Part shown: positions 39,580 through 41,760 of the stretch, piece by piece | How positions within the stretch are numbered: position 1 is the stretch's first letter | How the letters are laid out: every line of letters begins with the position of its first letter | Source of the DNA: Prochlorococcus sp. AG-355-N16 | GTDB lineage: Bacteria; Cyanobacteriota; Cyanobacteriia; PCC-6307; Cyanobiaceae | NCBI GenBank assembly: GCA_003278545.1 | Contig: QCEF01000002.1 | Coordinates: forward strand, 62,001-126,000 | Reading direction: 5' to 3' | Length of the DNA stretch: 64,000 bases | Position numbers and translations under genes: made by a program | The notes under the pieces: model-generated | What the model was told of the DNA's origin: nothing | Seen by the model: only the letters and a program-made list of their open reading frames with translations | Database searches by the model: none

Positions 39580-40734
39580 TTAAAAATTATTTTTTGGAAA
39601 ATTTTCTAATATTCTCTGATTTATTTTTGGAATATTTTCTTTAAATTTGAAAAACCCTTTTTTAGCAAATTTCCAAGCAAATAAATCTTCATCCCTCACA
39701 AGATTAAAAATTTTTTTATGGTGTAAATTTTTAAACTCAGTTATAAAATCATAATTTTCTCCCACTCCAGGATAAATAATGTCTATTTCGTTGGTATTTT
39801 TAAAAGTATTTTCCAGTGAATAAGGATCAATCTGTTCAATATTATCAAATTGCTCTACAAATTCAGAAACCAAATCTTGTTTAAATTTCAAAACAGATTC
39901 AGACAATTTAATTTGTCTTTGTTCATTTTTTAAAAGTATAATAAATACTTTTTTATAGCTTGGAAGTAAATTTTTAAGGGTTGCAAGGTGCAGATCATTT
40001 TCAAACATAATCAGATTATCTGATTTAGGATCCATATCATTTTTATAAATCTCATCTTCAAATGGTATTTGATTAGATTCTTCAAGAAAAATTTGTTGAT
40101 TACTTATTTTTTCCACATTAAATCTATTATTTGAAAACTTTCTGAGATTTGATGATGAAAAAAGATATTGTTTTCCCTTCGTTTGCAATCCTCCGACCCA
40201 TCTCCAACTAAGGAGATTAGAGGAGGCATCTCCATCAAAAAGATATTTAAAGAAAAACTTTGCTCCCAATTGCCATGGGAGGCCTAAATTAAATATCCAA
40301 GTACTCGCAAACCACATTCTTGTATGGTTATGCAAATAGTTGTACTCCTTTAATTCATGGACCCAAGAATTAAAAAAATCTAATTCTGTATTACCATTAA
40401 TTGCACTTTCATATAGCTCATAATCAAAATCTAGATTTTTTTCTGAAATAAAATTTCTCCAAACTTTAGGTCTATTTTCCATCCACCCTTTCCAGTAAAC
40501 TCTCCAAAATATTTCTTCAACAAATTTAGTTGAATTTTTGATTTTGTACTTACTTTTAATATCATGGATCAGATCATATTCCGATAATATTCGATGAGTA
40601 ATGAAAGGCGATAATTTAGAAACTGAACTTTCGTTATTTGGCCCAAAATCAAAATTTCTTAATTTTGCATAATCATTAATTTTGTATTTCGCAAAATTTT
40701 CCCAGGTATTTTGAGCTTTTAATAAAAAAGACAT
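39580..40734 (-). CDS. Photolyase/cryptochrome-like protein, apparently with permuted domains
   Basis: 384 residues. Residues 1-206 resemble the C-terminal FAD-binding domain of photolyases: EEIFWRVYWKGWMENRP (about 73-89), YNYLHNHTRMWFASTW (131-146), FDGDASSNLLSWRWVGG (166-182). No N-terminal antenna domain precedes them. Instead, residues 239-376 form a second alpha/beta part: NLIMFENDLHL recalls the FRxDLRL strand that opens normal photolyases, and DEDLFAWKFAKKGFFKFKEN recalls the end of that domain. Order is thus FAD domain then antenna-like domain. DNA repair or light sensing is inferred only. The neighbour on the other side is a LigA-like gene. Confidence 0.72.
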   Translation of the reverse strand: MSFLLKAQNTWENFAKYKINDYAKLRNFDFGPNNESSVSKLSPFITHRILSEYDLIHDIKSKYKIKNSTKFVEEIFWRVYWKGWMENRPKVWRNFISEKNLDFDYELYESAINGNTELDFFNSWVHELKEYNYLHNHTRMWFASTWIFNLGLPWQLGAKFFFKYLFDGDASSNLLSWRWVGGLQTKGKQYLFSSSNLRKFSNNRFNVEKISNQQIFLEESNQIPFEDEIYKNDMDPKSDNLIMFENDLHLATLKNLLPSYKKVFIILLKNEQRQIKLSESVLKFKQDLVSEFVEQFDNIEQIDPYSLENTFKNTNEIDIIYPGVGENYDFITEFKNLHHKKIFNLVRDEDLFAWKFAKKGFFKFKENIPKINQRILENFPKNNF

Positions 40735-41010: not shown

Positions 41011-41760
41011 ATGAATAATTTATTAGTGAGAGATGTTAAGTATCTTGATGAACAATACAGAATAGGTGAAGGCATAATTTCGGATGATGCATTTAAGCAA
41101 CTTGAAAAGCTCTTTATTCCTTTTGATCCAGAGCCTGACTTCTTTAATCAAAAAAAAAATAAACTTTTGCCAAAATTAGCCAAAGAAACCTATAAAGAAT
41201 TTTTGGAAAGTTTATTAACAAAAACAAGATTAAGCATTCAACCAAAAATTGATGGCTGTGCTATTGCTATTAGATATATAGATGGCAAGTTTAATAAAGC
41301 TATTACAAAAAAAGGATTTGATGTCTCAAGCAAAATTAAACAAATTAAAAATGTCCCCGATTGTATTCCTATCAAACGAGATTTTCAAATTAGAGGTGAA
41401 CTATATGCTACAAACCAAGTTGCCGGCATTTCCAAAAGAATTACAAGAAAATACCTCATTGATAAGAAAGGGATTGGAGAAAGTCTCCGCTTTTGCTGTT
41501 TCCAAATACTTAATGGAAGACTTAATCAATACGAAACCCTTAACTATCTTAAAAAATGTGGCTTCAGCACCCCTGACAGTTACTTCACAAATCATACAAG
41601 CGAAATCCAAATATATAAAAAAAATTGGTTAGAGAAAAAAATATTTGCGAAATATCCAACTAATGGGATAGTTATAAAAATAAATAGTAGGAAATTACAG
41701 TTACTGAGAGAGCAAAGTTTATCTCAAAATAACGAATGGCAATATGCAATTGAAAAATAA
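41011..41760 (+). CDS. Truncated LigA-like NAD-dependent ligase (adenylation domain only)
   Basis: 249 residues, against about 670 for a full LigA. It keeps a reduced Ia-like helix pair (EGIISDDAFKQLEKLF, 25-40), the nucleotidyl-transferase motif I KIDGCAIAIRY (lysine K79), RGELY (R128-Y132) and motif IV-like GIVIKINS (G219-S226). It stops just past WQYA near motif V. OB fold, zinc finger, HhH and BRCT domains are absent. It could act with partner proteins or on RNA or another acceptor; this is inference. Divergent from the photolyase-like gene over 276 nt. Confidence 0.7.
   Translation: MNNLLVRDVKYLDEQYRIGEGIISDDAFKQLEKLFIPFDPEPDFFNQKKNKLLPKLAKETYKEFLESLLTKTRLSIQPKIDGCAIAIRYIDGKFNKAITKKGFDVSSKIKQIKNVPDCIPIKRDFQIRGELYATNQVAGISKRITRKYLIDKKGIGESLRFCCFQILNGRLNQYETLNYLKKCGFSTPDSYFTNHTSEIQIYKKNWLEKKIFAKYPTNGIVIKINSRKLQLLREQSLSQNNEWQYAIEK

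Follow-up and report, generated by a model that had tools for sequence, protein, structure and literature searches.

The minus-strand gene at positions 39580 to 40734 of the window (the whole stretch of 64,000 nucleotides analysed here, from Prochlorococcus sp. AG-355-N16) encodes a photolyase whose domain order is truly reversed, and which is already known as Phr7 and is ordinary for its lineage. Its product is very probably the Prochlorococcus NewPHL-class photolyase of that name, in which a catalytic FAD domain at the N-terminus precedes an antenna-like alpha/beta domain at the C-terminus. The original prediction had known of no described permuted photolyase; in fact, Phr7 and other reversed-order photolyases appear in Haney et al. 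2022 (PMC9426592), a study based on 81 picocyanobacterial genomes, where Phr7 is described for high-light and LLI Prochlorococcus as having an N-terminal FAD domain, a C-terminal Z-domain and no Fe-S cysteines. In every feature tested, phr7 fits that published description. According to the same paper, Phr7 is closest to Phr4 and Phr6 and matches NewPHL, the CPD photolyases for single-stranded DNA from Emmerich et al. 2020, the work to which the inverted NewPHLs date back; the FAD/antenna order is also reversed in Phr4/Phr5 and Phr6, Phr4 and Phr6 have four Fe-S cysteines, and high-light strains carry four photolyase-family genes. NewPHLs are further described as having an inverted topology and as repairing CPDs in single-stranded DNA (PMC13274461). 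The FAD-first photolyase conserved in Prochlorococcus has a domain order that is true, unusual and already in print. The present analysis adds, modestly, a fold-level case for the antenna-like C-terminal domain and a tree with a single reversed-order branch, and it extends the Phr4/Phr5 pair to more cyanobacteria and to a Deinococcus plasmid.

Gene structure and selection

The gene and its parts, in window coordinates, are:
39580..40734, minus strand: phr7 (predicted NewPHL-class photolyase), 384 aa plus stop, ATG start; name from Haney et al. 2022 (PMC9426592)
40117..40734, minus strand: FAD domain, residues 1-206, from Pfam PF03441, PDB matches and alignment with the class I photolyase of the same genome
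40027..40116, minus strand: variable linker, residues 207-236, from alignments and a raised dN/dS in close pairs
39607..40026, minus strand: C-terminal alpha/beta domain ("Z-domain"), residues 237-376, from an AlphaFold model of residues 226-384, VIA-align, and hhalign to NewPHL C-domains (93%)

The prediction had placed FAD-domain motifs in residues 1-206 with no domain in front of them, and this was borne out: the quoted motifs lie in the halves assigned to them, and Pfam matches FAD_binding_7 at residues 71-193 (E 8e-14), while the PF00875 antenna domain was absent from the protein in the Pfam search, the N-terminal position included. In the alignments shown, the region matched by PDB photolyases lies within residues 13-201 or so. 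Since the stop-to-stop frame comprises 388 codons and leaves room for at most four residues upstream of the ATG, an N-terminal domain missed through a wrong start is excluded. Both domains are under purifying selection: across nine pairs, dN/dS is 0.04-0.13 in the FAD domain (residues 1-206) and 0.04-0.19 in the C-terminal one (residues 237-376); the 30-residue linker gave 0.1-1.3, a figure with few changes behind it. Permutation, fission plus fusion, and shuffling are candidate routes by which this order may have arisen.

The order is also kept among orthologues, the other point on which the prediction had proposed a check. In all ten same-genus genomes listed (the source genome, a draft of 1.65 Mb in 23 contigs, included) the match spans at least residues 1-379, with 71-100% identity. 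The homologue search drew 201 genomes, of which 62 gave no match (42 of these lie outside the listing), and most of the best 80 of 581 confirmed loci are 92-98% identical and come from Prochlorococcus records. In group g56, whose genomes we infer to be LLI, phr7 is present in seven of the nine genomes listed (41-43% identity). Across 96 cyanobacterial genomes, the C-domain was reached, among the matches listed, in five genomes, all of them same-genus or g56. Whole-length homologues were found by tblastn on plasmids of Ruegeria, Niveispirillum, Peteryoungia, Asticcacaulis and Novosphingobium, and six alphaproteobacterial proteins can be aligned with Phr7 from end to end; the plasmid homologues are called NewPHL by alignment and published description, the D. 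shibae and M. mesophilicum proteins standing outside the alignment. On the plasmid of Novosphingobium sp. THN1 (L154, 2501-3196), a NewPHL-like frame stops shortly past the FAD domain, matching up to residue 224 of the alphaproteobacterial protein L147, and is possibly broken.

A phage origin of phr7 was considered and rejected, as ten phage records match at just 22-26% identity, mainly in the FAD half. The viral contigs searched for phr7 yielded one 42-residue fragment, and a search with one of the protein alignments (A5) found none; the contig concerned (L115, 1-126) starts inside phr7, with the last 42 residues at 90% identity, and is either a piece of host DNA or the site of an insertion next to phr7.

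Adjoining phr7 is a gene (41011-41760, plus strand) for a stand-alone NAD-ligase adenylation-domain protein of 249 aa, a neighbour kept in 53 of 56 Prochlorococcus loci with full flanks. The draft genome has three short ORFs of this kind (249-259 aa) and no long frame with the domain, and the ligase OB domain was not found in it at E 0.001. Twelve of 13 genomes of the genus match, all listed frames being of 269 aa or less; ATP-ligase (PF01068) matches numbered three.

Fold and ancestry of the C-terminal domain

The prediction that an antenna-like domain follows the FAD domain held for the order, for the alpha/beta nature of the second domain and for its best structural realignment, which is to photolyase N-terminal domains, but not for antenna resemblance by sequence. 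AlphaFold modelled residues 226-384 with a pLDDT of 72 and a pTM of 0.64, as five strands alternating with helices. When this model was submitted to Foldseek, phosphopantetheine adenylyltransferases (PPATs) came out on top (E 2e-3) and photolyases were not found among the best 50 of 1294 rows. VIA-align, run on the best 1000 chains from Foldseek, gave ranks 1-8, and 26 of 50 rows overall, to photolyases or cryptochromes, with unrelated folds at Z 7.0-7.2. Three rows reached Z >= 8, namely 8ijy (Z 8.6, rmsd 2.8, 108 residues) and 4dja and 6dd6 (both Z 8.2), and these correspond to two (6-4) photolyases, 4dja and 6dd6 both being A. tumefaciens PhrB. In 24 of the 26 photolyase/cryptochrome rows, the alignment starts with model residue 12-13 on chain residue 2-5. 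VIA-align thus lends moderate support to an antenna-type fold of the modelled domain, the tool itself advising caution at Z near 8.

Pfam matches in the C-terminal half were at chance level only. Profiles were compared by hhalign, each against 100 column shuffles. With six alphaproteobacterial homologues taken as NewPHL, the Phr7 C-domain matches the NewPHL C-domains at 93.4%, with a score of 48 where no shuffle exceeded 18, and Phr5 matches classical antenna domains at 97.9% (81, with shuffles up to 22). The NewPHL C-domain scored 28 against Phr5 (shuffles up to 18; probability 27%; 1.7% in global mode) and 22.4 against antenna domains (shuffles up to 18.8; probability 5%), on the expected diagonal in both cases; both sets of shuffled antenna columns held one stray maximum each, near 134. 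Compared directly, the Phr7 C-domain gave non-significant results with Phr5 (two of 100 shuffles equal or better, off the diagonal) and with antenna domains (69 of 100 equal or better). Pooling the Prochlorococcus and alphaproteobacterial C-domain rows did not help, 26 and 97 of the 100 shuffles scoring at least equally well. The strand NLIMFENDLHL, which the prediction had likened to FRxDLRL, behaves in the same way: hhalign sets FENDLHL in the right register, but the match is non-significant. Because the links all run through the NewPHL C-domains of alphaproteobacteria and none is direct, descent of the Phr7 C-domain from an antenna domain is indirect and unproven.

These results bear on whether the C-domain might instead be some other Rossmann-like domain, for example a nucleotidyltransferase-like one, joined to an unrelated FAD domain, in which case the enzyme would still be Phr7. 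The PPATs at the head of the Foldseek list, the failure of the direct antenna comparison and the unrelated folds at Z 7.0-7.2 all speak for such a junction; the photolyases and cryptochromes at the top of the VIA-align ranking, with their first strands superposed, and the NewPHL C-domains, which outscore every one of the 100 shuffles when compared with Phr5 and likewise with antenna domains, and do so on the expected diagonal, speak against it. On balance we regard this origin as a tentative possibility, to be taken seriously.

Phr4/Phr5 loci and FAD-domain trees

In all 23 cyanobacterial Phr4-type loci read, which are the best-scoring ones and not a random sample, an antenna-type domain lies behind the Phr4-type gene on the same strand. 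It is fused in two and separate in 11 of 13 loci; in the other ten, an antenna-type ORF is adjacent in nine and 0.8 kb off in one. The latter is L165, whose Phr4 and Phr5 ORFs share a strand but have about 0.8 kb between them, while in the other nine loci they nearly touch or overlap. A plasmid of Deinococcus sp. QL22 (L152, 2360-3651) carries an overlapping gene pair, FAD domain followed by antenna-type domain, like Phr4/Phr5; its second ORF matches a cyanobacterial Phr5 profile, built without the Deinococcus ORF, at E 4e-26. The C-terminal half of a Persicobacter protein (L153), judged Phr5-like by eye, was dropped as a candidate, as the Phr5 profile did not retrieve it within the best 30 rows.

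Two FAD-domain trees were computed, the first from 58 of 59 rows (L140, a copy of L001, being excluded) and the second from 54 rows, with the long branches class_L004, L129, L145 and Persico_L153 also excluded. Both place Phr7 and NewPHL on a common branch, supported at 100/100 and 98/99, respectively, with Phr4/6 elsewhere. In the unrooted 54-row tree, a branch with 99/93 support has all 29 reversed-order rows on the same side, with class_L002 and Deino_L152 still long and the Phr7 rows flagged for odd composition and long-branch joins. In the 58-row tree, the long-branched (6-4)-type row lands among the reversed-order rows; class_L004 stands next to Deino_L152, so that two changes are needed there for the classical rows.

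Taken further, the Z-domain of Phr7 and NewPHL could be a worn antenna domain, inherited with the FAD domain from one FAD-first ancestor common with Phr4/Phr5/Phr6, the order having been reversed once; we hold the chances of this to be evenly balanced. The Phr4-type FAD proteins are probably, on our own assumption, the "SPL" of Xu et al. 2021. If the single-reversal account were true, "short photolyase-like" proteins would be FAD halves with their antenna half in a neighbouring gene, and not antenna-less family ancestors. Xu et al. 2021 described short photolyase-like proteins without the alpha/beta domain and suggested them as ancestors of the family (as cited in PMC9649867).

FAD half and predicted function

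By eye, on the alignment with the class I photolyase of the same genome and against the contact list of Haney et al. (PMC9426592), nine of 13 listed FAD contacts are retained (Y22, S39, L41, S42, R78, N136, D167, D169 and N173) and four are changed (V38, F71, Y133 and S172). The alignments, again by eye, show a Trp dyad, W154/W177, with a residue other than Trp at the third electron-transfer position; the D. shibae NewPHL likewise has a mere Trp dyad (PMC8948257). Phr7 contains no cysteine and hence no Fe-S cluster. The full-length AlphaFold model, made with 21 close relatives, had a mean pLDDT of 47, with blocks across residues 231-350 at 54-84 and the FAD half below 50, and was consequently left unused for that half; Foldseek found no match to it at E 0.001.

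Membership of the NewPHL class makes the light-dependent repair of single-stranded DNA that contains cyclobutane dimers the most likely function, an activity carried over from relatives whose work is known through citing papers. Phr7 would bind FAD, which would be photoreduced via the Trp dyad; on excitation by blue or UV-A light, an electron would pass to a cyclobutane pyrimidine dimer in single-stranded DNA and the dimer would split. Most likely the C-domain covers the FAD site; in the work of Emmerich et al. 2020 the corresponding domain is said to seal it. Being short, the domain is unlikely to hold an antenna pigment. In the cell, Phr7 would serve alongside three other photolyase-family proteins, its genome having four PF03441 genes.

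A cryptochrome-like light sensor, with the FAD domain retained and repair lost, would fit the four altered FAD contacts, and we came across no test of repair by Phr7 from any Prochlorococcus in the literature. Such a role is nevertheless improbable, as tested members of the class repair CPDs (PMC9426592, PMC13274461), the genome holds three further genes of the family, and the genes near phr7 give no hint of signalling. That Phr7 might be an Fe-S photolyase of the Phr4/Phr6 type with a true C-terminal antenna domain, as the same domain order and the shared side of the 99/93 branch could suggest, is scarcely credible given the lack of cysteines against four in Phr4/Phr6 (PMC9426592), the clustering with NewPHL in both trees and the non-significant, off-diagonal comparison with Phr5.

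Comparison with known photolyases

From Phr7 as presented in the text of Haney et al. 2022 we found no difference: the organism group, the N-terminal FAD domain, the short C-terminal domain, the want of Fe-S cysteines and the place as fourth gene of the family are the same. With NewPHL, known here from citing papers, the phr7 product has in common the inverted topology, the Trp dyad and a whole-length alignment to the alphaproteobacterial homologues; it differs in its low identity (32-33% to L147) and in some shorter loops. Phr4/Phr5 and Phr6 resemble Phr7 in that the FAD domain precedes the alpha/beta domain, but have Fe-S cysteines, a clear antenna domain (Phr5, 97.9%) and, in most loci read, two genes. 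The class I CPD photolyase shares a homologous FAD domain with Phr7, whereas its antenna domain is N-terminal and the enzyme of the same genome has, by eye, the third electron-transfer Trp.
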